Origin: Kordia algicida OT-1
GTDB taxonomy: Bacteria; Bacteroidota; Bacteroidia; Flavobacteriales; Flavobacteriaceae
Assembly: GCF_000154725.1 (NCBI RefSeq)
Contig: NZ_DS544873.1
Location: forward strand, 911,107 to 975,106
DNA length: 64,000 bases
Direction of reading: 5' to 3'
Shown: positions 11,532 through 53,040 of the stretch, piece after piece
Layout of the letters: each line of letters starts with the position of its first letter
How positions within the stretch are numbered: the stretch's first letter is position 1
The notes under the pieces: generated by a model
The model's input: only the letters and a program-made list of their open reading frames with translations
What the model was told of the DNA's origin: nothing
Database searches by the model: none
Translations under genes and position numbers: made by a program

Positions 11532-11554
11532 TTACCAAAAATTACACCAAAACA

Positions 11555-11572: not shown

Positions 11573-11618
11573 CAATAAGTACAATCAAACTAATAACTAA
11601 TCAAAATTACTAACAAGC

Positions 11619-27300: not shown

Positions 27301-30300
27301 GGTTATACGAAGAAACAAGCTTACGTGTCGCTGGAAGTCCTGGAATTGATGCAGAAAACTGGGAAAAAGTGCTCAAAGAAGTTGGTTTCAATCAAACCTT
27401 ATTCCCAGTAGCAAAAGCGCATCCGTACGGGCAACAAGTAATTGCAGCAGTAAGTGATGGGAAAGTAGTACAAAAACATATCAAAAAAGAAGTTGCTGCT
27501 ACAAAACCATCCAAAAAAATAGCGAAAGCACCAATCAAAAAGAATATCGCAAAAACGGTAGTGGCTCCACAAGGAAACTTACGAGAAAAAAGTATCACAT
27601 TCTTAACGGAATTAGTAGCGAAGTCACTCAGAATGAAACCGCAACAAATAGAAGCTTCACAACCGTTAGAAAATTACGGATTAGATTCTATCATGGTGGT
27701 ACAACTTACCAATCAATTCCGCAAAGTATTCCCAGACATCACAAGTACGTTATTCTTTGAGGAAAACACGGTTGATGGTTTGGTGAATTACTTCCTAGAA
27801 AACAAAAAAGAAGCATTACAAGCATTATTTGTAGAAACTGCTTCGGAAGTAGAAGTAGAAACTGTTATTTCAGAAGAAAAAGAACAAGCGACCATCGCGA
27901 TCAAAGATGCTCGTAAACCGTTTGAAATCTTCCGAAAAACAAACAAACCGACCATCAAAACCACCGCGACAAACAACAACATACGTTCAAAATTTGATGT
28001 AGCCATCATTGGTGTAAGCGGTCGTTATCCAAAAGCTGAAAACATAGACACTTTCTGGAACAATCTGTCAAAAGGAGAAAACTGTATCACTGAAATACCA
28101 AAAGATCGTTGGAATTGGGAAGACTATTACGATGAAGAAAAAGGGAAAGCGGGCAAAATCTATACAAAATATGGCGGATTTATCAGTGATATCGACAAAT
28201 TTGATCCGTTATTCTTCAAAATAGCGCCAAAAGATGCCAAGAAAATGGATCCGCAAGAACGTTTATTCTTGCAAACATGTTACCATGCCATTGAAGATGC
28301 AGGTTACACACCAAAAAATATCGCAGAAAATGATAAAATCGGTGTCTTTGCAGGAATTATGAACTCTCGCTACACAGCGCAATCCTTACACTATTCGGTT
28401 GCCAACAGAGTTTCATACACGTTCAACTTTCAAGGACCAAGTATGGCAGTTGATACAGCGTGTTCCTCATCACTCACGGCGATTCATTTAGCGTTGGAAA
28501 GTATTTATAACGGTACCAGTGAATGTGCCATTGCTGGTGGAGTCAACATCATAATTGATCCAGAACATTACATTCAACTCTCTGCAATGACGATGTTATC
28601 TACAGGAAATCAAAACAAAGCCTTTGGAAACAAAGCAGACGGATTCGTAGACTCAGAAGGTGTCGGAGCCATCATTCTAAAACCATTGCACAAAGCAGAA
28701 GCAGATGGCGATCATATTTACGGAGTCATCAAAGGAAGTGCCATCAATGCTGGAGGAAAAACGAACGGTTATACGGTTCCAAATCCAAAAGCACAATCGG
28801 CAGTTATCAGCAAAGCTTTAGAAAGTGCGGAAATCAACAAAGAACAAATCAGCTACATAGAAGCACACGGAACGGGAACAGCGTTAGGAGATCCAATTGA
28901 AATCTCAGCGCTCACACGTGCTTTAAAAACTGAAAACAGCAATAACAAATGTGCAATTGGTTCTGTAAAATCAAACATCGGACATTGCGAATCTGCCGCA
29001 GGAATCGCAGGATTGACAAAAATTCTACTACAATTCAAGCACCAACAATTAGTACCTTCATTGCATGCAGAAGTATTAAATCCTGAAATTGATTTCGGGA
29101 AAACGCCTTTCAAATTGCAACAAGCTACAGAAACATGGCAAAAACCTGCTATCGAAATTAACGGAACGGAACAACACATTCCGCGTATTGCAGGAATTTC
29201 GTCTTTTGGAGCTGGTGGCGCAAACGCACACGTCATTCTTGCAGAATATGAAGCAGTACCACAAAACTTGGCAACACACACGCCAAACACAGAAGTTGCT
29301 ATAGTACTTTCAGCAAGAACGGAATCACAACTCACACAAAAAATTCAAGACTTACTAAGTTTCGTTGAAAGCAAAGAAAATGAACTTGATTTATTGGCAA
29401 TTGCATACACGCTTCAAACGGGTAGAGAAGCGATGGACGAACGTTTTGCAACAACAGTTTCTTCTGTAGCAGCACTTATAAAAACGCTCAATGCATATCT
29501 CAATAATTCGTTAGAAACTAGAAAATATCAGCGCTCACGTACCAAAAATCATAAAGATGAAGTCTTAAACTTCAAATCGGAAGCAAACTACAAACAAATG
29601 CTTTCAACTTGGATAAAAGACAAAAATTACACAGAACTCTTAGCTTGGTGGACAAAAGGTATCGACGTTCAATGGAATGAATTATACTCAAGCAAAAAGC
29701 CACAACGCATCAGTTTGCCAACCTATCCATTTGCCAAAGAACGCTATTGGATTACGCCAAACAAACACAACACTATCGTTGCTGGAGCAGCAAAACTGCA
29801 TCCAATGATTCACAGTAACATTTCCAATGTGCAACAAACGCAGTTTAGCACAACATTTACAGGCGAAGAAGCATTCGTAAAACACTACGCGTTACAAAAC
29901 GGAAATGAAACGGTAAAAGCGTTACCATTCTTAGCAAGTGTCGAAATGATTCAAGCGGCAATCGCAATAGGATTTGCAAATACAGACGAAGGAACGATTC
30001 TAGAACTAAACAATCATCACTTTGGTTCGCTCATAGAAATTACTTCACAACAAGCAATTCAAACCGCACTATTTGCCATCGACGAAAATTCTGTAGGTTA
30101 CGAAATATTCTCAGAAAACTCAGAAAAAACAAAAGTTCATACGCAAGGAATAGCGAGCTACGAATACAGAAATTATACAGAAACATTGCCGTTTGACGAG
30201 CTTTTTGAAGAAATGGAGCATACGGTTGATGGAAATACGTTTTACAATGAATTCTCTCAAAAAGAAATCAACTATGGCGCGTACTATCAAGCGATTCAGG

Positions 30301-33300
30301 AAATTCATCTTGGAAATCAGCAACTCGTAGCACAATTACAAATTCCATCAAAATATCAGCAAGATGCTACTGAATTCGAATTACATCCAAGCATTCTAGA
30401 AGGTGTTTTACAGGCAAGCACATTACTATTAGAAGCACAAGAAACTGCGCAGTTGCCAATTTCGATTGATACCATTCGAAAAATGCAACCATTTGGAAAC
30501 GAAGTATTTGCTTGGATTCGCTACAGCGAAAACGACACACAGGCAGAAAACGAAGTGAAAATTGACATTGATCTCTGCGGTACGGATGGAACGATCTGTG
30601 CGCAATTTGTGGGGATCTCTTTTATCACTTCCGTAGAAAGTACACAGTTCGAACCAACTTTGGAAACAAAAGAAACTTCGGTAAAAGCAGCAACAACAGC
30701 AACGCTTGCAGAAACGTTTGAAACGCCAAAGGAAATTTTCTTTACAGTGCAAACGAAACCAGTAATTTCTACAGCAACGGCAAATACTGAAAATATTACT
30801 GTTAGTTCACTAGAAAAACCTTCTAATATTAAATTATCAAAACCAACAGCAATTGTAGTTGACAATAAAAAGAGTGCAACCTTGAAAAAAGGACGTGTAC
30901 AACTATCGGCAGAAAGTTCGCAACAAATTATAGAAACCACTGCGCCAATGTTGAGACTATTCAACACAGGCAACGGCATCTATAAACTGCAATTAGAAAC
31001 GTCTGAATTGGACAAAACGTTCATCGCTCAATTCAAAAGTGCATTGCAAAGACTCACAAAAGAAGAACATCTAAAAGTACTTTTAATAGAAGGAACACAA
31101 ACAGATTTCTTACACGGAGAAACGGAAGTTTTCAATGAAGCTTTGCAACAAGAACTATTCAAAGAAATACTATCGTTCAACTATCCAATCATTGCAAATA
31201 CACAAGGAAACGCTTCAAACGTTGGATTCTTAATCGCTTCACTCTGTGACTTTATCATTTGCAACGAAAAAGCAACATATAAGTTTTCAAACACAAATGA
31301 CAAACTTACAAACCTATTCAATGAACGTTTTGGAGCAGTCTTAGCAAACAACTTGCTACAACCAAACAAAAGTTTTACAGGAATACAACTCAAACAAAAC
31401 GGATTTACCATGCCAATAGTTGCTTCAGAAAAAGTAACGGAAACGGCAGCAGACTTAGCAGATAACTTAGCTAAAAAATCTCAGCGAACATTACGTTTAC
31501 TCAAACAACATTTATCGCGTCATATTTCTGAAAAAGTTGAACAACTCACAGCAATTTCGACAATAACAGAAAACACAGCTTTTGAAAAAGTGGAGATTTC
31601 CGAAACAAAAAGTTTCAAAGTTCAATACCAAAAAGATGGAGTTTGTGTCGTAACCATCAAGAACACGAAGTTAAAAGGAATTCAAACGCTAAACAGTGAA
31701 ATAGGAGCATTCTTTTCAGAAATCAACAACACAAAAAATCATAGCACAATTGTGCTAAAAAGTGAGCAAGAAAGTTTCATACCACAAACGGCGAAAGATG
31801 CAGAAATCATCAAGCTTTCAGAAATCTTACTAAACTGCAACTATCCAATCGTTACGGAATTAGACAAATCACCCAACACAAAAGCATGGTTGGTAAGTCT
31901 ACACACAGATGAAGTAATCTATAGTGAAACAGGAAACTACACCGCAAAAGGATTACTAGTCAACAAAACCTTAGCACAAAAAGCTACGTTGTTATTCACA
32001 GCGCGTTATGGCGAATTGGCAAGTAAAGAACTCTTGTTGCTTGGAAAAACATACAATGGAAAAGAGCTAAAAGCCGTAATACCAACAATTCAGACAGCGA
32101 CAAACGCTACAGAACTTGCAAAAAGTTGGTCAACAGAAAACCATGCAAAAACTTGGAAGTCAGCCAAAATCAAAGCGATCAAAGAATCAAAAAAGGAACT
32201 TCCAACGTGGAAACTAGCCACAGCAAAAGACGAGAAAGCGCCAAAAACAGGAACTGTCAATTTAAAATCATCAGTTGTCAAAGCAACCGTTTTAGAAGCT
32301 GGAATTCTAGAAATTCGCTTAGAAGAACGCGGTTCTAAAAATATGTTTACGGACGACTTTATGGCTGGTGTGAACGAAGTTTTTGAACACATTGAAAACA
32401 CGCCAAACTACAAAGTGGTCATCCTAACAGGTTACGACAACTATTTCGCTTCTGGCGGAACAAAAGAAGGATTGGTGGCAATTCAAGAAGGGAAAAGTAA
32501 ATTTACTGATACAAAAATCTATCAACTCGCAATGGAATGTAAAATTCCTGTCATTGCCGCAATGCAAGGTCACGCCATTGGTGGCGGTTGGTCATTTGGA
32601 ATGTTTGCCGACTTCATTTTCTTTAGCAAAGAACGCAAATATCTAAGTCCGTACATGAACTACGGATTCACACCAGGAGCAGGAGCAACGTACATTTTCC
32701 TAGAAACATTGGGTTATGATCTAGCACGCGAAACGCTACTTACGGCAAATGAAATCTCAGGAAGTGAACTCCAAGAAAAAGGAATACAACAAGCTGTATA
32801 CAGTAAAAACGAAATTATACAAGAAGCATTCACATTAGCAAAACAACTTGCGAAAAATACGAGAGCAATTCTTGTGGCTTTCAAACAGCAATTAGTACAT
32901 AAAAAACTAAGCAAAATTGACGCTGTATACACACTAGAACTAGCAATGCACGAGCAAACCTTTGTAGGTGCAAACAACGCATTGCAACAAATAGAGAAAA
33001 ACTTTATTCACGAAAGTGGTAAAACTATTGACACGCAAAAATCTTCTAAAACAATAGCGAACGCCGAAAAGAAAACACACATGAAACGTACAATAGGTAT
33101 TGACGAAGTTTTACACAACATCAAAAAATTCCTTGCGGAAGAACTGCACATGGAAGCAAATCTAATTGATGAAGAAACACAATTTGTGGACTTAGGAATG
33201 GATTCGATCACAGGAGTAACGTGGGTTCGTAAAATAAACGATCAATTCAAAACGTCTATCGAAGCCACAAAAGTATACAGTTTTCCAACGCTAAACGAAT

Positions 33301-36300
33301 TTAGCAAATACATCAAAGAACAAGTTGATGAAAAACTTGCTGATGAAATTCCTGAAGCAACTGTAACAGCAACAACTTCAGAAGAAATCACAGAAGAAAT
33401 TGTGGAAGAAATCGTAGAAGAAGTTGTCAATGAAACCATCGATCAACGTGAAGTTTTACAAGCAATCAAAACATTCTTGGCAGAAGAATTACACATGGAA
33501 ACGAAAGATGTAGACGAGCAAACACAATTCGTAGACTTGGGAATGGATTCGATCACAGGCGTAACGTGGGTTCGTAAAATAAACACAAAATTTAAAACAT
33601 CTATTGAAGCCACAAAAGTATACAGTTATCCAACCTTAACGGAACTGAGTAAATACATCAAAGCAGAAATAGACAAACATACAACACCGACGAAAGTTGT
33701 AAAAAAGGTACAACGAAAAGTAGTGCAAAAGCCAGTTCAGGCAAAAAAATCTACAATTCAAAAACCAGCATCAAAACTTTCCATATTCAATCGCAACGGA
33801 TTAACATCTTGGAAAGCACAACAAACCAAAAAAACACAACCAACACAAAAGTCTGCGACGAAAAATATACGCAACAACAACGATCATCGCATTGCTGTCA
33901 TCGGAATTGCAGGACAATTTCCAAAAGCAAAAAATGTCACAGAATTCTGGAACAATCTCGCAACAGGTAAAAACTGCATTAGTGAAGTCTCAAAAGATCG
34001 TTGGGACAACAAAAAACATTTCAAAGCAGGCGATCCAACTCCTGGAAAAACCAACAGCAAGTGGATGGGCGCATTAGAAAATTACGACAAATTTGATCCG
34101 TTATTTTTCAACATTTCGCCTGTAGAAGCAGAAAGTATGGATCCGCAACAGCGTTTATTTTTACAATCATGCTGGCATACCATTGAAGATGCAGGATACA
34201 ACACAAATGCACTCTCAGGAACCAAATGTGGCGTATTTGTAGGTTGTGGCGCAAGCGATTACCATCAACTATCAAGTGAGCACAGACTCAGCGCACAAGG
34301 ATTTACGGGCGGTTCGTCATCAATATTGGCGGCACGTATCTCGTACTTACTCAACTTGCAAGGTCCATGTTTATCAATAGACACAGCATGTTCGTCATCA
34401 TTAGTAGCATTAGCAACGGCGTGCGACAACTTAGTTTCAGGAAACTGCAACGTAGCACTTGCTGGTGGCGTAGGAATCATGGCAACTCCTGCAATGCATA
34501 TCATGACCGCGCAAGCAGGAATGTTATCGCAAGATGGAAAATGTCACACATTCGATCAAAATGCCAACGGATTTGTTCCAGGTGAAGCCGTCGGAGTGGT
34601 TATGCTAAAACGACTAGAAGATGCAGAACGTGACAACGATCGAATTTACGGAGTCGTACAAGGTTGGGGCGTAAATCAAGATGGAAAAACCAACGGAATT
34701 ACCGCGCCAAATGCAGTATCGCAAGCAAGCTTAGAAGCAGAAGTATATGAAAAATTCAACATCGATCCTGCACAAATTCAACTCATAGAAGCACACGGAA
34801 CAGGAACAAAACTAGGCGATCCAATAGAAGTAGATGCGCTAAAACAATCGTTCAAAAAATACACAGAAAACGAAACATTCTGTGCGTTAGGTTCGGTAAA
34901 AAGTAACATCGGTCACACCATGTGGGCAGCGGGAATTTCAGGTTTCCTAAAAGTCATTCTAGCCTTGCAACATCAACAATTACCGCCAACCATCAACTAT
35001 AGCAAACTCAACGAACACATCAACCTAAAAAACAGTCCGTTCTATGTAAATAATAAATTGCAAGATTGGAAAATTAATTCGGAAGAAAAGCGTCAGGCAG
35101 CCATCAGTTCGTTCGGTTTCAGCGGAACAAATGCACACATTGTCTTGTCAGAATACGTTCCGAAAAATACTCATCAACATACAGTAGACTATACTTTGGA
35201 TGGATTTGCCATTCCGCTAGCGGCTAAAAACAAAGCGCAACTTTTACAAAAAGTAAATGATCTTATCACTTCCGTAGAAAGTTCTCAGGAAACGTTGAAG
35301 CTTCAAGAATTGGCGTACACCTTACAAGTTGGTCGAGAACCAATGGAAGCGCGCGTCGGATTCATCACAAATACTGTCGAAGAACTGCTAGGACAACTAA
35401 AAAGTTATGCAAATGGTGATGACTTCGTAAAAGGAATGTATGTTGGTGACAGCAACGAAAACAAAGACGAATTACGCCTTTTTGCACAAGATGAAGACCT
35501 AAAAGAAACCATAGTTCACAAATGGATACACGAAAACAAACTATCCAAACTGCTCGAATTATGGGTAAAAGGATTAAATTTTGATTGGAACCTAATGTAC
35601 GGCGAAAACAAACCGAAACGTATCGGACTTCCAGTATATCCATTTGCAGAAAAACGCTATTGGATTGAAAACAAAGCGATCAATTCAGAAAAGAATGGTG
35701 CAAATCTGACACAAAAATTACATCCGCTTGTACATAAAAACACTTCCGATTTCACACAGCAACAATTCACATCCACATTTATAGGAGAAGAATTCTTCTT
35801 GCGAGATCATAAAGTCAAACTCACGGATGAAGGAAACCAAAAAGTATTGCCAGGCGTTGCTTATTTAGAAATGGCGCGAACGGCAGTTGCAATGTCTATA
35901 AAAGCAGCAAACGAATCACAAATCATTGAACTAAATGATGTCATTTGGATGTATCCAATCGCAGTTGAAACTCCAAAAGAAGTCACAATTGTACTCTTTG
36001 AAAATGACGAAACGGAACAAATTGACTTCGAAATCAGAAGCTTCATCACTGTAGATGAAAACACAACACAAGAAATCATTCACTGCAAAGGACACGCAAG
36101 TTATCAGACAGTTTCAAACGTTTCAAAAATCAATCTCAACACGCTAGAAACCAAAATGAACAAAGGAACGCTAGCAAAAGCAGACTTATATCCAATATTT
36201 GCAGCTTCCGGATTGGAATATGGAGAAGCACATCAAGGAATTGAAAAAATACGCAAAGGAGAAAATGAAGTCTTAGCAAGCTTACGTTTGCCAGAAATTC

Positions 36301-36755: not shown

Positions 36756-36763
36756 CATTAATC

Positions 36764-42700: not shown

Positions 42701-45700
42701 ATTCAGACAGCGACAAACGCTACAGAACTTGCAAAAAGTTGGTCAACAGCAAAAAACACAAAAACTTGGAAGTCAGCCAAAATCAAAGCGATCAAAGAAT
42801 CAAAAAAGGAACTTCCAACGTGGAAACTAGCCACAGCAAAAGACGAGAAAGCGCCAAAAACAGGAACTGTCAATTTAAAATCATCAGTTGTCAAAGCAAC
42901 CGTTTTAGAAGCTGGAATTCTAGAAATTCGATTAGAAGAACGCGGTTCTAAAAATATGTTTACGGACGACTTTATGGCTGGTGTAAATGAAGTTTTTGAA
43001 CACATTGAAAACACGCCAAACTACAAAGTTGTCATCCTAACTGGTTACGACAACTATTTCGCTTCTGGCGGAACAAAAGAAGGATTGGTGGCAATTCAAG
43101 AAGGGAAAAGTAAATTTACTGATACGAAAATTTTCCAACTCGCAATGGAATGTAAAATTCCTGTCATCGCTGCAATGCAAGGTCACGCAATTGGCGCAGG
43201 TTGGGCAATGGGAATGTATGCTGATTTCACACTATTCAGCAAAGAACGCAAATACCTAAGTCCGTACATGAACTACGGATTTACGCCAGGCGCAGGAGCA
43301 ACCTACATTTTCCCAGAAATTATGGGATACGATCTGGCACGCGAAACACTATTCACAGCAAAAGAATACAGCGGACTAGATTTTGAAAATAGAGGTGTAG
43401 CATTACCAGTATTAACCAAAGATGAAGTAGTAACTTACGCAGTGGAATTGGCAAAAATGATTGCAAAAAATTCCAGAAACACACTCATCGCGTTCAAACA
43501 GCAACTCATACAAAATCGTGTTGCGGAAGCAGAAGCAACCAAAAAGCTAGAATTGGCAATGCACGACGAAACTTTTGTGGGAGACGCAGCAACATTGCAA
43601 CAAATTCAAGAAAACTTTGCGTACAAGCAAGCAACAACAAATATTGATGAGGTCATAACTACGGAAAAAGAAGTATCGAATGATATTGAAGAAAATACGA
43701 TTTCAGATGTCGTAGAAACGATCAAAAAGTTTCTAGCAAACGAATTGCAATTAGAAGAAAATGAAATCGAAGAAGATGCACAATTTGTTGATATTGGTTT
43801 AGACTCCATCACAGGAGTAACGTGGATTCGAAAAATAAACGATTACTACAAACTATCGCTGGAAGCAACACAAATTTACACATACACAACGCTCCAACAA
43901 TTGGGTGATTTCATTCAAAAAGAACTTGGAGGAACAATACGAACTACGAAAGAAACAAAAACCGTAGCAACGCCAGCTCCGAAAGAAGTTGAAACAATCG
44001 TTTACGAAGAAGAAGTAATAGAAACAGTTGATGGAACTGCTGAAATTGTAGAAACTATCAAAAAGTTCTTAGCAAACGAATTGCAATTAGAAGAAAATGA
44101 AATAGAAGAAGACGCACAATTTATTGACATTGGTTTAGACTCCATTACTGGTGTAACGTGGATTCGAAAAATAAACGATCATTACAAAACAAGCATTGAA
44201 GCAACGCAAATATATACCTATCCAAGTCTCAACAGTCTCAGCGAATTCATCAAAGAGGAATTGCAAAGACTCGGATTAACAGAAACTAAAAAAATAACCA
44301 AAAAAGTAGTTGCTACAACGCCAAAAACGGTTCAAACAATACCAAATAGCAACAATACGTTCCAATTTACAGAACGAAAACTAACATCCATTCGTTCCAA
44401 AAAAGCGATTAAAAAGAGTGTTGCCAAAACAAACAATTACACATCGCAAGCAATTGCAGTCGTTGGAATGGCAGGACAATTCCCAAAAGCGGAAAACGTA
44501 CAGCAGTTCTGGCAAAACATTGCGCAAGGCGAAAACTGTATCACGGAAGTTCCAAAAGAACGTTGGGACATTAACGAATACTACAGCGAAGGAACACCAA
44601 CGCCAGGAAAAACCAATAGCAAATGGTTGGGAAGCTTGGCAGGATACGATCAATTTGATCCGTTATTCTTCACTATTTCGCCAATAGAAGCCGAAAGTAT
44701 GGATCCGCAACAGCGATTATTTTTACAATCATGCTGGCATAGTATTGAAGATGCAGGTTACAATCCGCAAGCACTCTCAGGAACAAAATGTGGTGTCTTT
44801 GTAGGTTGTGCTACAGGCGATTACCAATTGCCTTCACGTGAGCAACAACTTAGCGCACAAGGATTTACAGGAGGAACATCGTCCATCTTAGCGGCGCGAA
44901 TCTCATATTTCTTAAACTTGCAAGGACCATGTATTGCTTTAGATACGGCGTGTTCATCATCGTTAGTAGCTATTGCAAACGCTTGTGATAGTTTAGCTTC
45001 AGGCGCAAGCGATTCTGCTTTGGCAGGAGGAGTTTATGTAATGACAGGACCAGAAATGCATGTCAAAACAGCACAATCGGGAATGTTATCAAAAGACGGA
45101 AAATGTCACACATTCGACCAAGAAGCCAACGGATTTGTACCTGGAGAAGCTGTTGGAGTCGTAATGCTAAAACGTTTAGAAGACGCAGAACGCGATAACG
45201 ACAATATTTATGGAGTTATCAAAGGTTGGGGATTAAACCAAGATGGAAGAACCAACGGAATTACAGCGCCAAACTCACAATCGCAAACCAACTTAGAACA
45301 AGAAGTGTATGACAGATACGACATCAATCCAGAAGAAATTCAACTCATAGAAGCACACGGAACGGGAACGAAATTGGGCGATCCGATAGAAGTTGCCGCG
45401 TTGAAAAATTCCTTCAAAAAATATACAGAAAAAGAGCAATATTGCGCGTTAGGTTCGGTAAAAAGTAACATCGGACATTGCTTAACAGCCGCAGGAGTTG
45501 CAGGATTTATCAAAGTAATGAAGGCAATGGAACACAAAAAATTGCCACCAACCATACATTACAATCAGCTAAATGAGCATATTTCATTAGAAAAAAGTCC
45601 GTTTTACGTAAACGATCGTTTGCAAGATTGGGAAGTTGGACAAGCTGAAATTCGTCATGCGGCAATCAGTGCCTTTGGTTTCAGCGGAACAAACGCACAT

Positions 45701-46588
45701 TTGGTAATGAGCGAATACATTCCAGAAACGGTAGACAAATCGCAGATAAATGTCATCACTCAAAACAAAAAATACCTCATTCCAATCTCTGCACGCAACG
45801 AAGAACAACTAGAAATTCAAGCAGAAAACTTGCTAGCGTATGCGAAACAAAACTTGACTACGATCGATCTTGTAGAAATGGCTTACACACTACAAGTTGG
45901 TCGTGATGCCATGGAAGCGCGCGTTGGTTTTATGGTCACTTCCGTGGAAGAACTCATTGACAAGGTTGAAGCGTATTTGCAAGGCGAGGAATTCATCAAA
46001 GATTTCTACCAAGGTCACATCAAAGAAAACAAAGAAGGACTCAAACTGGTAAGTGGCGATAAAGAAATGAAAGAACTCATCATTCAAAAATGGGTTTCTG
46101 ACAAAAAACTAAACAAGTTGCTTGATTTATGGACAAAAGGATTGGATTTTGATTGGAACATTCTCTATGGAAACCAAAAACCAAAACGTCAGCGTTTACC
46201 AATCTATCCATTTGCCAAAGAAAGCTATTGGTTAGAAGCAACAACAATCAATTACAATGCGGAAATTCCAGAAGAAAAATCAGCAAAACTACATCCGTTA
46301 GTACACGAAAAAACAGAAGATTTAAAAGCGCAAGGTTTAACAGATGCCACTCAAAAAGATGCAACGACAGAAACCAAACGCAAAAAAATAAAACGTATCA
46401 ACTTACCAACATATCCTTTTGACCAAGAAAAATGTTGGCCAGAAACAGCGCCAAAAGCAGTTGAAACACCAAAAGAATCTACCATAGTATTCAAAGATTT
46501 AGATGCTATTGAAGATGTCATAGAACGTATAGATGGAGAATTATTAGATACTGATGAAGCAGTATTAATATTAAAAGATTTACTCTAA
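36764..46588 (+). CDS. Trans-AT PKS: KR-ACP of module 5, module 6 (beta-branching), KS of module 7
   Basis: The start is ATG 36764, 8 nt after the previous stop; a second ATG follows directly. The N-terminal helix (LKKIFLDLSSKKLSEKEAL) looks like a docking domain matching the C-terminus of the preceding protein. Order by nucleotide: KR 36890-38100 (TGGFGGVG), ACP (Ser 38297), KS6 38590-39860 (Cys 39083, DTMCSSS), DH-like fold 40409-41260 with Phe (40499) replacing the catalytic His, two decayed crotonase folds and one intact ECH (41510-43620), two Trp-flagged ACPs (Ser 43805, 44141), KS7 44450-45720 (Cys 44951). After KS7 and LPIYPFAKESYW (46194) come a stub of a DH (KLHPLVHEKTED, 46289), a second linker motif LPTYPF (about 46400) and an acidic docking helix ending in LLDTDEAVLILKDLL. 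Module 7 is therefore split between its KS and its DH, which opens the next protein. No AT is present. Confidence 0.94.
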   Translation: MMKEQLKKIFLDLSSKKLSEKEALEKIRAIKAAQKHSDVSTLYASPTWKIVKNPHDNQAVNAHHVICLQIADNAQKVLAKKLPQSTIHTVKASNFSEIALSCFSIIKNILENKIQANSYVQIVLGTSVEETLLQSLSALFKTATLENHNLIGQLIVSDQKNAVEKLAAQLIEETQQSTDAIIKYEGGKRAVKRLEEIQTQQSNNSAYKENGVYLITGGFGGVGIAFAKEILQQLEKTTIILTGRSKLTAEKRQLLQQLSEKNKKVQYIQMDVANEQKVAENVQNILKEYKKLHGIIHAAGINKDNFILKKSVAEFKEVLQAKVAGTQNIDEATKDVDLDFITYFSSIAAWFGNPGQADYAVANAFMDEFAKQRNQLVQAGKRKGKTLSINWPLWENGGMEIDSEIKARLLEETGFIPLDDQTGTTIFQKAINTNQTHILGVKGSLEKIKDTLFNQVVKVQQQEEEIISETLDEKELLRKTTAFVRDEFSTIIKLPAREIETHVALEKYGIDSILAMNITSQLEKTFGRLSKTLFFEYQTIDELSEYLANAFTSVLTAKFSSNATKKQSVSNTKKTIVHSKSHQTKTTKKKIRTQSEQSFNVQFTPQNTNQNEPIAIVGLSGRYPESENIQEFWNNLQQGKDCIIEVPKSRWDWKKHYSKDRTEQNRHYSKWGGFIAGVDEFDPRFFNISPREAKNIDPQERLFLQHSWMAMEDAGYTREALHKASENNLPGQVGVYVGVMYGEYNLSGSLASIANRVSYVLNLHGPSITLDTMCSSSLTSVHLACQDLKSGRTDMALAGGVNVSIDANKYQMLSTGQFISSDGHCQSFGEGGDGYIPGEGVGVVMLKRLSDAEKDGDHIYGIIKGSALNHGGKTNGYSVPNPKAQASVISRALREANVHPRHVSYIEAHGTGTKLGDPIEITALNKAFGIDNENHFCQLGSAKSNIGHCESAAGIAGITKVILQLQHKQIVPSLHSAKLNPHIDFEHTPFVVNQSLKTWENPIVDGNIIPRIAGVSSFGAGGANAHILIEEYNSVKNVATHTPNTEVAIVLSARTKPQLKQKIQELARFIENQEHTPDLLAIAYTLQTGREAMDERFATIVFSIEELTKTLNAYLGNALQTSKYHQARTKDHKNDVLDFKSEANFDETCATWLQNKNYGELLAWWTKGIDVQWNELYATQKPQRISLPTYPFAKESYLLTPEERGRATKETTKAIIHPLVHENTSNISETRFSSTFNGEEAYIKDFTIHKENQTLHGLPFMASLEMAREAIAQAIPQQKEDNVLSITNVQFGAFMQASSVNQIHIALLPESESVASYEIYSQHDDEDIIYTQGKARYTDKKATLQVDINALRQQMSKAVISGTTIYENAVQYGTSYRGIKTVHFGNQQILAHLQLPSEVVNDVKSYVLHPTILESAVKAVSGIAGNQNEISATTIIPTEITSVNIHASCTSEMFAWIRYSENDSQAENEVKIDIDLCDTNGTICAQFVGISFSTSVESTQFEPTLETKETSVKAAATATLAETFETPKELFFTVQTKPTIALTATNAENTVSSLEKPSSIKLTKPTAIVVDKKNSATLKKGRVQLSVESSQQIIETTVPMLRLFNTGNGIYKLQLETSELDKTFIVQFKSALQRLAKEENLKVLLIEGTQTDFLHGESEVFNEALQQELFKEILSFNYPIIANVQGNASNVGFLLASLCDFIICNEQATYEFSNTNDKLTNLFNERFGAVLANNLLQPNKSFTGTQLKQNGFTMPIVASEKVTKTAADLADNLAKKSQRTLRLLKQHLSRHISEKVEQLTAISTITENTAFEKVEISETKSFKVQYQKDGVCVVTIKNTKLKGIRTLNSEIGAFFSEVNNTKNHSTIVLKSEQESFIPQTAKDVEIIKLSEILLNCNYPIITELQNSPNAKAWLVSLHTDEVIYSETGNYTAKELLANKTLAQKATLLFTACYGELASKELLLLGKSYNGKELKTVIPTIQTATNATELAKSWSTAKNTKTWKSAKIKAIKESKKELPTWKLATAKDEKAPKTGTVNLKSSVVKATVLEAGILEIRLEERGSKNMFTDDFMAGVNEVFEHIENTPNYKVVILTGYDNYFASGGTKEGLVAIQEGKSKFTDTKIFQLAMECKIPVIAAMQGHAIGAGWAMGMYADFTLFSKERKYLSPYMNYGFTPGAGATYIFPEIMGYDLARETLFTAKEYSGLDFENRGVALPVLTKDEVVTYAVELAKMIAKNSRNTLIAFKQQLIQNRVAEAEATKKLELAMHDETFVGDAATLQQIQENFAYKQATTNIDEVITTEKEVSNDIEENTISDVVETIKKFLANELQLEENEIEEDAQFVDIGLDSITGVTWIRKINDYYKLSLEATQIYTYTTLQQLGDFIQKELGGTIRTTKETKTVATPAPKEVETIVYEEEVIETVDGTAEIVETIKKFLANELQLEENEIEEDAQFIDIGLDSITGVTWIRKINDHYKTSIEATQIYTYPSLNSLSEFIKEELQRLGLTETKKITKKVVATTPKTVQTIPNSNNTFQFTERKLTSIRSKKAIKKSVAKTNNYTSQAIAVVGMAGQFPKAENVQQFWQNIAQGENCITEVPKERWDINEYYSEGTPTPGKTNSKWLGSLAGYDQFDPLFFTISPIEAESMDPQQRLFLQSCWHSIEDAGYNPQALSGTKCGVFVGCATGDYQLPSREQQLSAQGFTGGTSSILAARISYFLNLQGPCIALDTACSSSLVAIANACDSLASGASDSALAGGVYVMTGPEMHVKTAQSGMLSKDGKCHTFDQEANGFVPGEAVGVVMLKRLEDAERDNDNIYGVIKGWGLNQDGRTNGITAPNSQSQTNLEQEVYDRYDINPEEIQLIEAHGTGTKLGDPIEVAALKNSFKKYTEKEQYCALGSVKSNIGHCLTAAGVAGFIKVMKAMEHKKLPPTIHYNQLNEHISLEKSPFYVNDRLQDWEVGQAEIRHAAISAFGFSGTNAHLVMSEYIPETVDKSQINVITQNKKYLIPISARNEEQLEIQAENLLAYAKQNLTTIDLVEMAYTLQVGRDAMEARVGFMVTSVEELIDKVEAYLQGEEFIKDFYQGHIKENKEGLKLVSGDKEMKELIIQKWVSDKKLNKLLDLWTKGLDFDWNILYGNQKPKRQRLPIYPFAKESYWLEATTINYNAEIPEEKSAKLHPLVHEKTEDLKAQGLTDATQKDATTETKRKKIKRINLPTYPFDQEKCWPETAPKAVETPKESTIVFKDLDAIEDVIERIDGELLDTDEAVLILKDLL
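41123..43213 (+). repeat. Long direct repeat, copy 2 (tail of DH0 to ECH of module 6)
   Basis: Partner of 30507-32600 at an offset of about 10.6 kb, with one codon less. Changes are mostly single substitutions. After about 43190 the two ECH domains diverge (GGGWSFGMFADF versus GAGWAMGMYADF). Confidence 0.9.
41510..43620 (+). other. Triple crotonase array of module 6 (ECH-like, ECH-like, ECH)
   Basis: Same arrangement as in module 4: two crotonase folds without the catalytic motifs (about 41510-42170 and 42220-42760), then an apparently functional ECH (42860-43620) with TGYDNYFASGGTKEGL and MQGHAIGAGWAMGM. The decayed copies are kept as open reading frame in both modules. Confidence 0.8.
43697..44280 (+). 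other. Tandem beta-branching ACP pair, module 6
   Basis: Two ACPs sharing IGLDSITGVTW, with Trp at Ser+6 in each (43823, 44159). They are almost identical to each other but distinct from the module 4 pair (LEENEIEEDAQF versus MEANLIDEETQF), suggesting homogenisation within each pair. Confidence 0.88.
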
Positions 46589-46647
46589 AAACAGACAATT
46601 CACCAAAAAAGACTTTCAAATTTCCACCAGAAAAAAAGAAAAACCAA

Positions 46648-49600
46648 ATGATAGATTTTATTGAATATGTAGTTTCCGAACTGAAACACAAGAGACTATC
46701 CAAAGGAAATGCCTTATCACTCATAAAGCAATTTTCACAAAAATCGTCAACACAAGCAGTACATAAAGCAATTCATCCATTGCTGCATACCAACACGTCT
46801 GATTTCTATCAGCAGCGTTACAGCACCGTTTTGAATGGAAGCGAACCATTTTTAGCAGATCATCAAGTACGATTGGGCGAAGACAATCTTATGAAAATCT
46901 TGCCTGGCGTTGCGTATTTAGAAATGGCACATGCCGCGCTAGCAAATGCGTTGCCAAACATCACAGATACACATGTCATAGAACTTAAAAACGTGGTTTG
47001 GATGCAACCATTTTTTGTGTCGGAAGCGAAAGAAATTCATATTGAATTACTCACGGAAAACGAAGAAAACATTCAGTTTGAAATCTACAGTAGCGAAAGT
47101 AATGCACAGGAAACAATTCACTGTAAAGGAGAAATCAATTATGTTGAAAAAGAGGAAAACAAAACGCTAGAAGTTGAAAAACTTACAGATAACATGCATC
47201 GTGGCGAATTAAACACTGCAGAGATTTACGAAACGTATGCAAACTTAGGATTACAATATGGTGACACGCATCAAGTAATCTCAAAAATCTATCAAGGAAA
47301 CAACGAACTCATTGCCAAACTCGAATTGGCGAACGCTTCAAAAGCAACACAAGAAAAATACACATTGCATCACGGAATGTTAGATGGTGCATTGCAAGCG
47401 AGTTTAGGTTTGGTGGATGATTTAGCAACTTTATCTTCTGGAAGTCCGATGTTGCCATTTGCGTTAGAAAATATTCAAGTATTTACTTCGTGTACAGAAG
47501 AAATGTTCGTTTGGATTCGCTATGCGGAAGGTTCTAAAAGTGGCGATACCATTACCAAACTTGACATAGATGTTTGTGATGCAGATGGAATCATCTGTGC
47601 ACAACTCAAAGGATTTACGTCAAAAACATTTACAGTTCCAAGTCTAAAAACAATTGCAAATTCAGAAGAAGCGACAGTCGTATACGCAACACAAACTTGG
47701 AAAGAAACCAAAGGAGAAACTGCCAAAGTTGCATTCGATCACAACGAAATCATCTTCTATAATTTCGCTCAGGAAGACGTAAAAACGATTCAAAATAACC
47801 TGTCAAACGCATCATGTAGTGCATTTAAGGTTTCTTCTAAGAAAAATACAGCAGAAATCTACGAAGAAGTTTCATTGCAGATTTTCAAAAAAGTACAGGA
47901 ACTCATTCAAAAGAAATCGCAAGGAAAAGTACACTTGCAAATCGTATATAATAACACTGCTGAAAATGAAATCTTTACAGGAATCACAGGCTTACTAAAA
48001 ACAGCCGCTTTAGAAAATCCGAAATTCTCAGGACAAATCATTCTCACAGATCAAAATGACGCGAAAGAAATCACGAAGCAATTACAATTCAATCAAGAAA
48101 ACTACATTGATACGGTTGTAAAATATGAAAATACAGTACGTTATGTGTGGCAATTGGAGGAAATTAGCTTACCAAATACACAAGAAAACATCAGTTTCAA
48201 AGAAAATGGCGTGTATCTCATTACAGGTGGATTTGGCGGATTGGGAACGCTTTTCGTGGAAGAAATACTACAGCAAACCAACAATGCAACCATCATTCTT
48301 TCTGGTCGTTCTGAACTAACATCTGAAAAAGAAGCAAAACTCAAAAAACTCACTGAAAATGGCGGAAACGTTGCCTATCGTCAACTAAATCTTTCAGACG
48401 AAAAACAAACAAAATCAGCAATTGCAGCAATCTTAAAAGAATTCGATCAATTAAACGGAATTCTTCACACAGCAGGAATGACAGCAGATAATTTCATTCT
48501 CAAAAAAACTACGGAAGAATTCACAAACGTACTGCAACCAAAAGTAATTGGAACGTACAACTTAAACCTTGCTACACAAAATACTGATATAGATTTCATC
48601 GCATTATTTTCATCAGGAGTTGCGGCACTAGGAAATCCAGGGCAAGGAGATTATGCACTAGCAAACGGATTCTTAGATCACTATGCAAACTATCAAAACA
48701 AACAGCAAAACAATACAAAATACGTTGCGATAAATTGGCCGTTATGGAAAAATGGTGGCATGGGATTACAAGCAGAAATGCTTGAAAACATGAAACAACA
48801 AACTGGCGTACGTCCGTTGGAAACCGCAAATGGTACAACAGCATTTCAACATTCATTAAACTTAGAAACTTCTTCACTATTTTTATTAGAAGGAGAAGCA
48901 CAAAAAATTCGCAAACTACTCTTTGAAAAACCAGCGATAGAAACGATAAAAGAAATTACGGAAGAAACGCCAAAAGCAACAACGACTGAAACTACAGATA
49001 ATCTAGTTGAAAAAACGATAGCATATTTACGAAAAGAATTCTCATCAGTCTTAAAAATATCGTTGCACAAAATTGACACACGCGCTCCGCTAGAACGTTA
49101 CGGAATCGATTCTGTCGTAGCAATGAATCTGACAGGAAAACTAGAAAAAACATTTGGAACCTTATCCAAAACCTTATTCTTTGAATACCAAACGATTGAT
49201 GAATTGGGCGAATACATTGCAGCAAACTTTCAAGAAAAACTACAAACACTATTTTCCATTGAAAAAACTGCGGTAAAATCTCCAAAAAAGCAAGTTTCAA
49301 AACCTGTTCAAAAAGTAGAAACGCCAACAATAACAAGAAGACAGCGAAGAAAATTCAAGAAATTAGGAGCAAATCAAAATGCATATTCAAAATCTCTAGA
49401 ATCAGTTAACAACGAACCGATTGCGATTGTGGGACTTAGCGGACGTTATCCTGAATCAATCAATATAGAAGCCTATTGGAACAATCTAAAAAACGGAAAA
49501 GACTGTGTAACAGAAGTTCCAAAGCAACGTTGGGATTGGCGTGATTTCTACAACGAAGACAAAGCAAATCCAGGCGCACATACAAGCAAATGGGGCGGAT

Positions 49601-52600
49601 TTATCACAGGAGTAGACGAATTTGATCCACGATTTTTCAACATCTCGCCAAGAGAAGCAAGCTACATAGATCCGCAAGAACGTATCTTTTTACAACATGC
49701 TTGGACAGCGATTGAAGATGCAGGTTACACAAGACAATCGTTACAAATTCCAATGGAAAACGATCAATCAGCGCAAATTGGTGTTTATGTTGGTGTCATG
49801 TATGGCGAATACAATCTCTCAGGAAGTTTGGCAAGTATCGCCAACAGAGTTTCGTACTTCTTAAATCTTCACGGACCAAGTATGACGCTTGATACGATGT
49901 GTTCTTCATCACTCACAGCAATTCATTTGGCATGTCAAGACATCAAACTTGGACGTACCAACATGGCAATTGCGGGTGGCGTAAACGTAAGTATCGATGC
50001 CAACAAATACAGCATGCTAAGCGCAGGACAATTCATTTCGAGTGACGGACACTGTCAAAGTTTTGGAGAAGGTGGCGATGGTTACATTCCAGGCGAAGGT
50101 GTTGGAGCTGTGATCTTAAAACGTTTATCAGAAGCAGAAAAAGATGGCGATCACATCTACGGAATCATCAAAGGAACAGCGTTAAATCACGGTGGAAAAA
50201 CCAATGGGTATACAGTACCAAATCCAAATGCGCAAGCGGCAGCGATATCGAGAGCATTGCGCGAATCAAAAACAGATCCAAAACACATCAGTTATGTAGA
50301 AGCACACGGAACAGGAACAAAATTGGGCGATCCGATTGAAATTGCAGCGTTGACCAAAGCATATCAAATCTCAGCAGAAAAAAGTCACTGCTTAGTCGGT
50401 TCATCCAAATCAAACTTAGGACACTGTGAATCTGCCGCAGGAATTGCAGGATTTACCAAAGTATTATTGCAAATGAAGCACAAGCAAATTGTTCCTTCAT
50501 TGCATTCCAAACGCTTAAATCCAAACATAGACTTTACGAAAACACCTTTTGAAATCAATCAAACCTTACGCGATTGGGAAAAACCAGTTGTTGAAGGAAG
50601 TACAATTCCGCGTTTGGCAGGATTATCATCTTTCGGAGCTGGCGGTTCTAATGCACACATCATCATACAAGAATACGAAACTAAACAAAACGATTATTCG
50701 TTAGAAATTTCAGAATTTCTTGTGCCTTTATCGGCTAGAATTGAACGTCAATTAATTCAAAAAGCAACTGATCTTTTAGCATTCATTCAAAAAAATAAAG
50801 AAACAATCAATCTTACGGAACTCGCGTATACCTTACAAATTGGTAGAGAAGCGATGGATGAGCGTGTCGGTTTCTTGGTCACTTCCGTAGATGACCTAAT
50901 CGAAAAATTAACAGCATTTGTAAATGGTGACACCGAACACGGAGACATTTATCGCGGGCAAGTACAGCAAAACAAAGAAACCATTTCATTATTCAATTCG
51001 GATGTAGACTTTCAGGAAACCATCAACAAATGGATTGAACAGAAAAAATACGCAAAGGTTTTTGACTTATGGGCAAAAGGGCTTCAACTTGACTGGAGTA
51101 CATTCTATGGCAATGAAAAAATACAGCGCATCAGTTTGCCAACCTATCCGTTTGCAAAAGAAAAATACTGGAATGCTCCGGAAATGCGAGGAAAAGTATT
51201 GCCAGAAACTCAAAATATTTCTGCATTACATCCATTAGTGCATGCAAATACGTCCAACTTAGACCAACAACGTTTTACGACGACATTTACAGGAAAAGAA
51301 TTCTTTGTAAAAGACTATCAACTAAAACTCAACGGAACTGGCGCCAAAAAAGCGTTGCCTGCTTTGGCTAGTCTAGAAATGGCTCGCGCTGCCGCAGAAC
51401 ATATCAAACCTGCATCGAAAAAAGCAGAAGCAATTTCGTTGCAAGGAATTTCTTGGGGAAAACCATTTCTACTCAATGAAAACAAACAACTAGATATCAT
51501 CCTTGAAAAAGAAGGTGAAAATGGTGTTTATTTTGAAATTACAAGCAAGCAAGAAAATGAAGAAATCATTCATGCGCAAGGACTGGCAAACTATGAAACT
51601 GCGGAACAAAGTTTCCAATTTGATGTAGCCAAACTTCAAAATGAATTACAGTCAAACACACGCGAAGCAAACGAAATTTACACCGCTTTTAGTGTCATGG
51701 GATTGTATTATGGCGCATCCAATCAGGTAATTCAGAAAGTATACATGAGCAAAAATTATCTCTTATCAGAAATTTCATTGCCAAAAACTATTGAAAACAG
51801 TCTAACAGATTTTGTACTACATCCAAGTATTTTAGACAGTGTGATGCAAGCTTCAATATGTCTCATAACCGATTTAAAACTGTCTGAAAACTACATGTTT
51901 ATTCCTGTGGCAACGGATTCATTAACGATTTATAACGCTTTCACGAAGAAAATGTTCGTATTAGTTCAATATGACGAATCGCAAACTTCGGAAGATGCCG
52001 TATACATCAATGCAGATTTCTGTGACGAAAACGGAATTGTTTACGCTCAACTAAAAGGTTTAGAGTTACAACAAATCAAGTTAGACAGAACCGTCAAACA
52101 AGCAAAAAAGGTTACAATCGATCTAGAACCGTTTGTCATATTAGAATCAAAAATAGAAAAGCCAACAGACGTACAACTACGCGAGTTGTCTACCAAAATT
52201 GCGATTGAAGAAAAAATCATTTCGCCAAAACCAACAAATGTAGCATTAGCAAACACGCAAATCATACAAAAAGCAGCAATACAAAACGACGCGCCGACAA
52301 TCAAAAAAATAAGTTTAGACGATTTTGACGACGCACCAAAAGTGGAAAGCGCAATAACTCCAAAACAAAAAGAAATCAAATTAATTGATCTCGATGTACC
52401 AAAAGTGGAAGCTGTAAAAGAAAAATCAGTAACCATTGAAACATCAAACGTTTCAGAAAACACTTTCTCAAAAGAACAACTCAAACAAATGCTTATCAAT
52501 ACGTTGGCAGATGCATTGTATCTAGAACCGCATGAAATTGACGCCGACAAATCATTTATAGACATTGGTTTAGATTCAATTGTTGGTGTAGAATGGATAA

Positions 52601-52725
52601 AAACGATCAACAAAGAACTAAACATGGAATTATCGTCTACCAAAATTTACGACTACGCAACTGTAAACGCGCTTGCCAAATACATACGTAGCGAAATGGA
52701 AAGTATGGAAAATGCAATTTCATAG
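46648..52725 (+). CDS. Trans-AT PKS: DH-KR-ACP of module 7, KS-DH0-ACP of module 8
   Basis: The start ATG 46648 lies 59 nt after the previous stop with no Shine-Dalgarno sequence. The N-terminal helix (VVSELKHKRLSKGNALSLIK) is a likely docking domain. Domains by nucleotide: DH7 46768-47650 (ADHQV, LPGVAYLEM, LHHGMLDGALQ: His and Asp present), KR7 47670-48910 (TGGFGGLG, FSSGVAALGNPGQGDYALAN), ACP7 (Ser 49111), KS8 49415-50680 (Cys 49900), DH-like fold 51223-52090 with Tyr (51316) replacing the catalytic His and LPALASLEM instead of LPGVAYLEM, a long Lys/Pro/Asp linker, and a C-terminal ACP (Ser 52576) with Trp at Ser+6. No ECH domain is present although the ACP carries the beta-branching flag, so dehydration and decarboxylation there would need enzymes in trans. 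The protein ends right after this ACP; its tandem partner opens the next protein. Confidence 0.94.
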   Translation: MIDFIEYVVSELKHKRLSKGNALSLIKQFSQKSSTQAVHKAIHPLLHTNTSDFYQQRYSTVLNGSEPFLADHQVRLGEDNLMKILPGVAYLEMAHAALANALPNITDTHVIELKNVVWMQPFFVSEAKEIHIELLTENEENIQFEIYSSESNAQETIHCKGEINYVEKEENKTLEVEKLTDNMHRGELNTAEIYETYANLGLQYGDTHQVISKIYQGNNELIAKLELANASKATQEKYTLHHGMLDGALQASLGLVDDLATLSSGSPMLPFALENIQVFTSCTEEMFVWIRYAEGSKSGDTITKLDIDVCDADGIICAQLKGFTSKTFTVPSLKTIANSEEATVVYATQTWKETKGETAKVAFDHNEIIFYNFAQEDVKTIQNNLSNASCSAFKVSSKKNTAEIYEEVSLQIFKKVQELIQKKSQGKVHLQIVYNNTAENEIFTGITGLLKTAALENPKFSGQIILTDQNDAKEITKQLQFNQENYIDTVVKYENTVRYVWQLEEISLPNTQENISFKENGVYLITGGFGGLGTLFVEEILQQTNNATIILSGRSELTSEKEAKLKKLTENGGNVAYRQLNLSDEKQTKSAIAAILKEFDQLNGILHTAGMTADNFILKKTTEEFTNVLQPKVIGTYNLNLATQNTDIDFIALFSSGVAALGNPGQGDYALANGFLDHYANYQNKQQNNTKYVAINWPLWKNGGMGLQAEMLENMKQQTGVRPLETANGTTAFQHSLNLETSSLFLLEGEAQKIRKLLFEKPAIETIKEITEETPKATTTETTDNLVEKTIAYLRKEFSSVLKISLHKIDTRAPLERYGIDSVVAMNLTGKLEKTFGTLSKTLFFEYQTIDELGEYIAANFQEKLQTLFSIEKTAVKSPKKQVSKPVQKVETPTITRRQRRKFKKLGANQNAYSKSLESVNNEPIAIVGLSGRYPESINIEAYWNNLKNGKDCVTEVPKQRWDWRDFYNEDKANPGAHTSKWGGFITGVDEFDPRFFNISPREASYIDPQERIFLQHAWTAIEDAGYTRQSLQIPMENDQSAQIGVYVGVMYGEYNLSGSLASIANRVSYFLNLHGPSMTLDTMCSSSLTAIHLACQDIKLGRTNMAIAGGVNVSIDANKYSMLSAGQFISSDGHCQSFGEGGDGYIPGEGVGAVILKRLSEAEKDGDHIYGIIKGTALNHGGKTNGYTVPNPNAQAAAISRALRESKTDPKHISYVEAHGTGTKLGDPIEIAALTKAYQISAEKSHCLVGSSKSNLGHCESAAGIAGFTKVLLQMKHKQIVPSLHSKRLNPNIDFTKTPFEINQTLRDWEKPVVEGSTIPRLAGLSSFGAGGSNAHIIIQEYETKQNDYSLEISEFLVPLSARIERQLIQKATDLLAFIQKNKETINLTELAYTLQIGREAMDERVGFLVTSVDDLIEKLTAFVNGDTEHGDIYRGQVQQNKETISLFNSDVDFQETINKWIEQKKYAKVFDLWAKGLQLDWSTFYGNEKIQRISLPTYPFAKEKYWNAPEMRGKVLPETQNISALHPLVHANTSNLDQQRFTTTFTGKEFFVKDYQLKLNGTGAKKALPALASLEMARAAAEHIKPASKKAEAISLQGISWGKPFLLNENKQLDIILEKEGENGVYFEITSKQENEEIIHAQGLANYETAEQSFQFDVAKLQNELQSNTREANEIYTAFSVMGLYYGASNQVIQKVYMSKNYLLSEISLPKTIENSLTDFVLHPSILDSVMQASICLITDLKLSENYMFIPVATDSLTIYNAFTKKMFVLVQYDESQTSEDAVYINADFCDENGIVYAQLKGLELQQIKLDRTVKQAKKVTIDLEPFVILESKIEKPTDVQLRELSTKIAIEEKIISPKPTNVALANTQIIQKAAIQNDAPTIKKISLDDFDDAPKVESAITPKQKEIKLIDLDVPKVEAVKEKSVTIETSNVSENTFSKEQLKQMLINTLADALYLEPHEIDADKSFIDIGLDSIVGVEWIKTINKELNMELSSTKIYDYATVNALAKYIRSEMESMENAIS

Positions 52726-53040
52726 CAAGTAATTACAGTACCAAAGAAACATTTACAAACACTGAGAAAATACTCAATCAAAACATACCAAAATGCATAG
52801 TTTAACCAAGACACAAATACAAAAACGTCTTATAGTAAGTCTAGCCGACGCACTTTACTTAGAACCTTCTGAAATTGATGCGGACAAATCATTTACAGAT
52901 TTAGGTCTAGATTCCATCGTAGGCGTAGAGTGGATAAAAACTATCAACAAAGAATTTGATCTCGAACTCTCGTCGACCAAAGTATACGACTATTCAACCG
53001 TAAAACAATTGTCGGCGTATGTAGCGGAAGAATTAGCGAA
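52471..53040 (+). other. Tandem beta-branching ACP pair of module 8 split across two proteins
   Basis: ACP8a (52471-52706) ends one protein and ACP8b (52799-53040) begins the next. Both share LADALYLEP, EIDADKSF and LDSIVGVEWIKTINKE, with Trp at Ser+6 (52594, 52931). They match each other far better than other ACPs, as expected for a tandem pair later separated by a stop, a 67-nt gap and a new start. Confidence 0.88.

Follow-up and report, generated by a model that had tools for sequence, protein, structure and literature searches.

Alternating β-branching and reducing modules, with embedded crotonase triplets, in a trans-AT polyketide synthase of Kordia algicida OT-1

Repeated β-branching along one polyketide synthase (PKS) is known from kalimantacin, for which a single cassette carries out four branchings (PMC5089993). 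The in-line ECH2 domain of kalimantacin, termed mECH, is reported to give an exo-β-methylene in competition with the trans-acting BatE (PMC12560621), and the in-cis ECH2 of weishanmycin is likewise reported to lead to an exo-methylene (PMC7618002). In the cis-acyltransferase (cis-AT) line of cylindrocyclophane, tandem in-line crotonases (ECHs) work with a β-branching cassette (PMC9582728). The stretch of DNA analyzed here, referred to as the window, comprises 64,000 nucleotides of Kordia algicida OT-1 (NZ_DS544873.1, bases 911107–975106 of a 5.03 Mb one-contig genome) and contains modules 4–8, the middle of a 14-module trans-AT PKS in which three β-branching modules (4, 6, and 8) alternate with two reducing modules (5 and 7). 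The reading that we favor, to which we assign a probability of about two in three, is that modules 4 and 6 form exo-methylene branches and module 8 an endo-methyl branch.

Domains were called with Pfam on protein slices and with local hidden Markov models (HMMs) built from those slices; domain coordinates are window positions on the forward strand. Module 4 comprises a ketosynthase (KS4, 27996–29507) with the Cys-His-His motifs present, a dehydratase-like domain (DH4, 29799–30626), three crotonase-like domains, and two acyl carrier proteins (ACP4a, 33114–33314; ACP4b, 33459–33659). Module 6 has the same layout (KS6, 38597–40108; DH6, 40412–41245; ACP6a, 43718–43915; ACP6b, 44054–44251), and its KS motifs are likewise found. 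Module 8 consists of KS8 (49414–50928), which has the KS motifs and is the sister of KS6 in the KS tree (70% identity), DH8 (51229–52077), after which neither Pfam nor the local HMMs give an in-line ECH match, and two ACPs divided between proteins, ACP8a (52492–52686) at the end of protein o31 and ACP8b (52826–53023) at the start of protein o32. The reducing modules are likewise split: in module 5, KS5 and DH5 (35721–36593) are followed across a protein boundary by the ketoreductase KR5 (37394–37948) and ACP5 (38210–38404), and in module 7, the boundary separates KS7 from DH7 (46774–47628), KR7 (48208–48750), and ACP7 (49024–49218).

The Trp flag (DSX5W, with the Trp six residues past the Ser) is present in 6 of 18 assembly-line ACPs, and these are exactly the three tandem pairs of modules 4, 6, and 8; ACP5 and ACP7 are unflagged. 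The same six of 18 are flagged in a relative, G353, which is one of two same-genus genomes in the family sample. No KR match was obtained in module 4, 6, or 8 with Pfam or the local HMMs. The DH-like domains of these modules are degenerate, with Tyr, Phe, and Tyr in place of the active-site His and Glu, Glu, and Asp at the Asp position; in G353, the corresponding residues are Tyr, Val, and Tyr and Glu, Glu, and Asp. DH5 and DH7 retain both His and Asp in the two species, as do DH3, both DHs of module 10, and DH12 in this genome. In KR5 and KR7, the active-site Ser and Tyr are present and an Asp occupies the LDD-like position, residues that we take to have their customary meaning. All domains of modules 4–8 sit in open frames, and the ratio of nonsynonymous to synonymous divergence (dN/dS) is 0.05–0.32 across the 11 domain pairs compared between this genome and G353; these values are rough, as synonymous sites are near saturation (dS 1.1–2.3), but they make a chance pattern of domains unlikely. 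The initial annotation had already described tandem flagged ACPs without a KR in modules 4, 6, and 8 and a DH and KR in modules 5 and 7, and both descriptions hold, as does the span that it gave for the array, with KS4 starting at 27996 and ACP8b ending at 53023. The His-less DH-like domains and the crotonase triplets were absent from that annotation.

The assembly line is directly followed by a β-branching cassette. The gene for the HMG synthase (HMGS, o34) begins within the window (63884–64000, forward strand) and runs on to window-relative position 65143, and the rest of the cassette lies outside the window: ECH1 (o35), an assignment that rests on gene order and on the PksI-like character of the neighboring ECH2 (o36), an AT (o37), a metallo-β-lactamase-fold hydrolase (o38), an 81-residue donor ACP (L003:5783-6028) that is also found in G353, a KS (o39) with Ser at the active-site Cys position, a second AT (o40), and a phosphopantetheinyl transferase (PPTase, o42). 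The initial annotation had made HMGS-type branching depend on the remaining cassette enzymes, all of which are present. No AT match is listed by Pfam in any of the eight PKS proteins, the ATs being the separate AT-like proteins o37 and o40. With separate ATs, a full cassette, and flagged acceptor ACPs in KR-less modules, the system is an HMGS-type β-branching trans-AT PKS, and HMGS-type branching at modules 4, 6, and 8, alternating with reducing modules, is supported. The order KS, degenerate DH, ACP would also suit B domains, which have been characterized as DH-like folds lacking the His-Asp dyad (PMC11425284) and would create the branches by vinylogous Michael addition, not by HMGS chemistry. 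This is highly improbable given the Trp-flagged tandem ACPs, the in-line ECH2 domains, and the complete HMGS cassette; moreover, degenerate DHs also occur in modules 2 and 13, whose ACPs are unflagged.

In modules 4 and 6, but not in module 8, the HMGS-type machinery is accompanied by a block of ~680 residues ahead of the ACPs that is composed of two degenerate crotonase-like domains, ψECH1 and ψECH2, and one intact PksI-like ECH2, the mECH. In module 4, ψECH1 (30948–31613) is matched by Pfam ECH_1 at 4.4e-19, ψECH2 (31614–32207) is matched by ECH_1 at 4.2e-5, which is under the curated cut-off, and by NF005496, and the mECH spans 32268–32978. In module 6, ψECH1 (41561–42226) and ψECH2 (42227–42820) are delimited by local HMMs and alignment, and the mECH (42881–43588) by Pfam, tree, and sequence signature. 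The NCBIfam PKS ECH2 model NF005496 matches the module 4 block in three stretches with 402.7 bits. The first two domains carry the family sequence signal without the catalytic His and the oxyanion motifs, whereas the third has PksI as its best PDB match and keeps the catalytic His, together with GxGW and PGAG motifs. Compared with G353, dN/dS is 0.18–0.30 for the four pseudo-domains and 0.05 and 0.11 for the two mECHs, the lowest values beside the KSs, with dS again near saturation. The ψECH pairs (30948–32207 and 41561–42820) are 94–95% identical in DNA between the two modules here and 58–64% identical in G353, which probably reflects recent gene conversion.

For comparison, a plasmid of Eleftheria terrae (NZ_CP106953.1; L028, 540000–589000) encodes a carbamoyltransferase, FabV, a cassette, and, in the stretch read, four flagged-ACP modules, one of which has an in-line ECH2. 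From this gene content, the cluster looks like one of kalimantacin type; a literature search returned no paper linking it to kalimantacin. Two KS domains extracted from it are identical in sequence. In a 20-row ECH2 tree, the mECHs of modules 4 and 6, from this genome and G353, join the in-line ECH2s of the kalimantacin-type cluster, Nostoc, and Ensifer with support of 100/99, and the trans ECH2s of both Kordia genomes join the trans ECH2 of the same kalimantacin-type cluster (84/89). All seven members of the mECH clade have GxGW and PGAG, and none of the 13 other rows, two of them in-line, has both. Placing all nine in-line ECH2 rows in one clade is rejected by the approximately unbiased (AU) test (p-AU 0.0005), although this group was chosen with an earlier tree in view. 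Consideration of GxGW/PGAG as a hallmark of in-line ECH2s generally ended in its rejection, as the Photobacterium and Kitasatospora domains are without it. ECH2 matches were obtained in 22 plasmid records, and the domain was extracted from 14 of them; H6, H9, H11, H14, H15, H16, H19, and H21 were left out, of which H6, H9, H11, and H14 have the same percent identity as an included record and look like near-copies. A frame break in its record interrupts the bacillaene ECH2, which was left out of both the tree and the signature table.

The KSs that follow the branching modules also fall into two groups. KS5 (33888–35417), which would accept the module 4 product, and its sister KS7 (44450–45982; 66% identity, motifs present) are only 48–50% identical to KS9 (53279–54820), which would accept the module 8 product; KS9 and KS3 are 64% identical. 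Against PksL (5erf), KS9 scores 737 bits, KS3 676, and KS5 and KS7 520 and 540, compared with 415–487 for the other single-KS chains among the matches listed, the two-KS chain 7zma being set aside. ACP8b-KS9 aligns with the PksL structure 5eny, in which the KS comes after a Trp-flagged ACP, at 797 bits, and KS9 is 61.5% identical to the Bacillus velezensis KS that comes after a tandem flagged pair. In the KS tree, built from 27 rows hand-picked among 82, KS9 and KS3 cluster with the bacillaene KS (100/99), and KS5 and KS7 fall in a second clade with kalimantacin-type, Nostoc, and rhizobial KSs (100/99). A single group of KS5, KS7, and KS9 (six rows, this genome and the relative) is rejected with a p-AU of 1.2e-8, a value weakened because the choice of group followed inspection of a quick tree, one whose careful search was not complete. 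The trees do not include KS14 or the KS downstream of the Ensifer mECH, which a frame break splits, and the 27-row set has only one copy of the identical kalimantacin-type pair. The separate clades indicate that the products of modules 4 and 6 and that of module 8 are seen by different KS lineages. Use of the KS clade as an exo/endo marker was also considered and rejected, because kalimantacin-type KSs after modules without an mECH fall in the KS5/KS7 clade as well.

In the chemistry that we propose, modules 4, 6, and 8 would leave a β-ketone on their tandem flagged ACPs, and the trans-acting cassette (donor ACP, Cys-less KS, HMGS, and ECH1) would convert it to a 3-methylglutaconyl-type branch. 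For modules 4 and 6, we predict by analogy that the mECH, as the third crotonase of the block, forms the exo-β-methylene by decarboxylating the branch to C(=CH2)-CH2, and in module 8 the trans ECH2 would give the endo-methyl C(CH3)=CH. Modules 5 and 7 would add CH=CH. The segment expected from modules 3–9 would read CH=C(CH3)-C(=CH2)-CH2-CH=CH-C(=CH2)-CH2-CH=CH-C(CH3)=CH-CH(OH). This division of exo and endo outcomes is favored by the presence of a kalimantacin-type mECH in modules 4 and 6 only and by the different clades of the downstream KSs, KS9 lying with the post-branch KS of bacillaene, whose branch is endo.

Several points weigh against this assignment. An in-line ECH need not correlate with an internal or terminal olefin, and module 6 of palmerolide has an in-line ECH and is assigned an internal olefin (PMC8739492). 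Neither the in-line ECH2 of a leinamycin-like Kitasatospora cluster, of a kind for which exo products are also reported, nor that of Photobacterium has the GxGW/PGAG signature, which thus marks a lineage, not necessarily a regiochemistry. In addition, the KS5/KS7 clade is not exo-specific, since some of its kalimantacin-type members follow flagged ACPs in modules that have no in-line ECH, and its Agrobacterium/Rhizobium members likewise lack one. Finally, KS3, which comes after a KR-bearing module, falls in the KS9 clade, for which the model gives no explanation.

Two other outcomes of HMGS chemistry can be weighed on the same evidence. The initial annotation predicted that all three branches are endo, C(CH3)=CH, resulting in a conjugated polyene with retinoid spacing. 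The tandem flagged ACPs, the DH and KR domains of modules 5 and 7 with their active-site residues, and the complete cassette with a PksI-like trans ECH2 are consistent with that outcome, and in-line ECHs sometimes accompany internal olefins (PMC8739492), but the restriction of the kalimantacin-type mECH to modules 4 and 6 and the different clades of the downstream KSs make it unlikely. From the isoprenoid-like chain of that annotation we retain the spacing: module order would place the branch carbons four apart, as in the head-to-tail C5 units of terpenes. On the mECH and KS evidence, the uniform C(CH3)=CH units probably do not hold, and with them the retinoid likeness; no retinoid-like chromophore would be expected, because the CH2 groups would interrupt the chain. 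It is also conceivable that the branches of modules 4 and 6 retain their carboxyl group, or that the mECHs are inactive and the trans ECH2 serves all three modules, as competition between in-cis and in-trans ECH2s is discussed for kalimantacin (PMC12560621). The catalytic His and low dN/dS of both mECHs, along with the separate downstream KS clade, leave this only a slim chance, and the mixed exo/endo assignment is preferred.

The remainder of the assembly line lies within a cluster that extends from a NusG-like gene (genome position 898227) to the PPTase gene (984075), with every gene on one strand. Protein o28 begins with a loading part (AprA-MT2-like, weak GNAT, ACP) at window positions 12664–14130, and KS1 groups with a Nostoc KS that comes after the same kind of start. 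It continues with module 1 (KS-KR-ACP), module 2 (KS-degenerate DH-KR-ACP), and module 3 (KS-DH/KR-MT-ACP, a slash marking a protein boundary and MT a methyltransferase). Proteins o29–o32 encode modules 4–9, including KR9 of module 9 (55859–56410; Pfam and motifs), a module with no DH match. Modules 10–14 are KS-DH/DH-KR-ACP, KS/ACP-DUF-SH, KS-DH-KR-ACP, KS-degenerate DH/ACP, and KS-ACP-TE (TE, thioesterase). The order of o28–o33 is taken from gene order; in G353, o28 and o29 are one protein of 8038 residues, which fixes the order of modules 1–5. The order o33-o19-o22 is suggested by split modules: o33 has a KS at its end, o19 opens with an ACP and closes with KS-DH, and o22 opens with an ACP. 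Upstream of the window, o19 (L002:2949-5948, genome 898949 onwards) begins ACP-DUF(LPG_synthase_C)-SH, mid-line and without a TE; judged by sequence, this DUF-SH is a leinamycin-type didomain of the kind that installs a thiol or persulfide. In o22 (window 1790–5533), Asp and Asn replace both catalytic His residues of KS14, which is therefore probably a non-elongating KS ahead of ACP-TE. In module 2 (21793–23763), a KR is present and the ACP carries no flag, yet ACP2 falls beside the flagged ACPs: in a FastTree ACP tree, support is 0.92 for the fork holding module 2, the flagged ACPs, and module 12, and 0.81 for the flagged ACPs among themselves. Module 2 may carry out branching cryptically, or may once have done so.

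These features can be joined into a more far-reaching proposal, which we put forward tentatively and with more doubt than confidence. The product would contain three head-to-tail pseudo-isoprene units, two of them exo-methylene, and the chain would be sulfurated mid-line by DUF-SH; cryptic branching at module 2, an option raised by the position of ACP2 as sister to the flagged ACPs and of KS3 in the KS9 clade, would add a fourth unit. PKSs are dimers. The crotonases of β-branching cassettes are trimers (PMC7501309, PMC10006238), and this mismatch suggests that ψECH-ψECH-ECH2 is a putative one-chain pseudo-trimer, in which two dead copies would stand in for the missing neighbors and each PKS chain would have its own complete decarboxylase. 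If true, the PKS would imitate terpene branch spacing by domain programming, and the block would show how a trimeric enzyme can be accommodated in a dimeric assembly line. The line also contains an internal comparison: a single cassette serves two branching modules that have an in-line ECH2 and a third that lacks it, which makes the question of exo versus endo control directly testable.

The NusG-like protein (L002:2227-2790) heads ~85 kb of co-directional genes, has a counterpart of 87% identity in G353, and is a possible dedicated antiterminator. Upstream of the cluster are SusD-like, TonB-receptor-like, and alginate-lyase-like genes. A free-standing class III aminotransferase-like protein is encoded at window positions 62–1768, which raises the possibility of an amino group in the product. 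Within the cluster (window 5586–12347 and genome 909567–911126) are also a DUF1302 protein, a zinc-type oxidoreductase, an MMPL transporter, a LolA-like/DUF1329 protein, a GMC-like oxidoreductase, and a START protein, perhaps for the export and tailoring of a hydrophobic product.

All 25 genes from o18 to o42 have counterparts in the same order in G353 (24 genes there, o28 and o29 being fused), with best local identities of 64–96%. Just downstream of the cluster, G353 has another set of large genes, with matches to carrier proteins and KS/KR domains (L014-L015, G353:C33:377232-398944), a place that is occupied by other genes in this genome. The other same-genus genome (G179) gave no match to the crotonase triplet; of 397 family genomes, this one counted, two show a match. 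At E ≤ 1e-45, ECH2 matches occur in 2 of 395 family genomes, both of this genus, and in 1 of 395 phylum genomes, again counting this one. A search of genome contigs returned one weak locus, on a Vagococcus contig, which matches the ECH2 part at 24% identity. A literature search of titles and abstract starts, with subscription literature mostly outside its reach, brought up neither this cluster nor a ψECH-ψECH-ECH2 block.

Among known systems, the kalimantacin/batumin type resembles this PKS in having several HMGS branches per line, an in-line mECH along with a trans ECH2, and post-branch KSs of the KS5/KS7 clade. In the kalimantacin-type cluster of Eleftheria, whose domains were scanned up to 589000, the one in-line ECH2 comes after the ACPs and three branching modules are consecutive, whereas here two modules have the mECH as a triplet ahead of the ACPs, and KS-DH-KR modules separate the branching ones. 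The statement in the initial annotation that no polyketide with three such branches is described was too strong, given that the kalimantacin cassette acts four times, in another register (PMC5089993). Nostoc sp. UHCC 0926 (NZ_CP117772.1) and Ensifer canadensis (NZ_CP083375.1) have KS-ψECH-ECH2 followed by two flagged ACPs, with an ECH2 of the same clade, and the next KS of Nostoc belongs to the KS5/KS7 clade; one ψECH was found in each of these plasmid PKSs (1e-17 in Nostoc and, weakly, 1e-5 in Ensifer, E-values for a search of six regions only with filters off), compared with two here.

Bacillaene is similar in that KS9 is close to the PksL/BaeL KS that comes after Trp-flagged ACPs, but the B. 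velezensis stretch read has a single flagged pair and gave no in-line ECH2 match. The DUF-SH of o19 is 36–38% identical over 90–93% of its length to those of four Streptomyces/Kitasatospora plasmid PKSs, one of which adjoins an LnmK-family gene. The leinamycin family is described as an eight-module hybrid of nonribosomal peptide synthetase (NRPS) and PKS ending KS-ACP-ACP-DUF-SH-TE, and DUF-SH modules of non-leinamycin PKSs as having one ACP and no TE (PMC7618002). Here, a single ACP precedes DUF-SH and no TE follows, the line continuing as ACP-DUF-SH-KS-DH-KR-ACP with 14 KSs in all and no NRPS domain listed by Pfam for the PKS proteins. The tandem-ECH cis-AT lines, of which curacin is a further example, likewise have in-line crotonases that serve a β-branching cassette. 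In those lines the ECH stands with an enoyl reductase (ER), whereas here two members of the block are degenerate, the line is trans-AT, and Pfam gives no ER match in o29 or o30. Compared with these systems, the number of branches is not new; what is new is that the mECH comes as a triplet, that it is used in two alternating modules, and that a DUF-SH stands mid-line.

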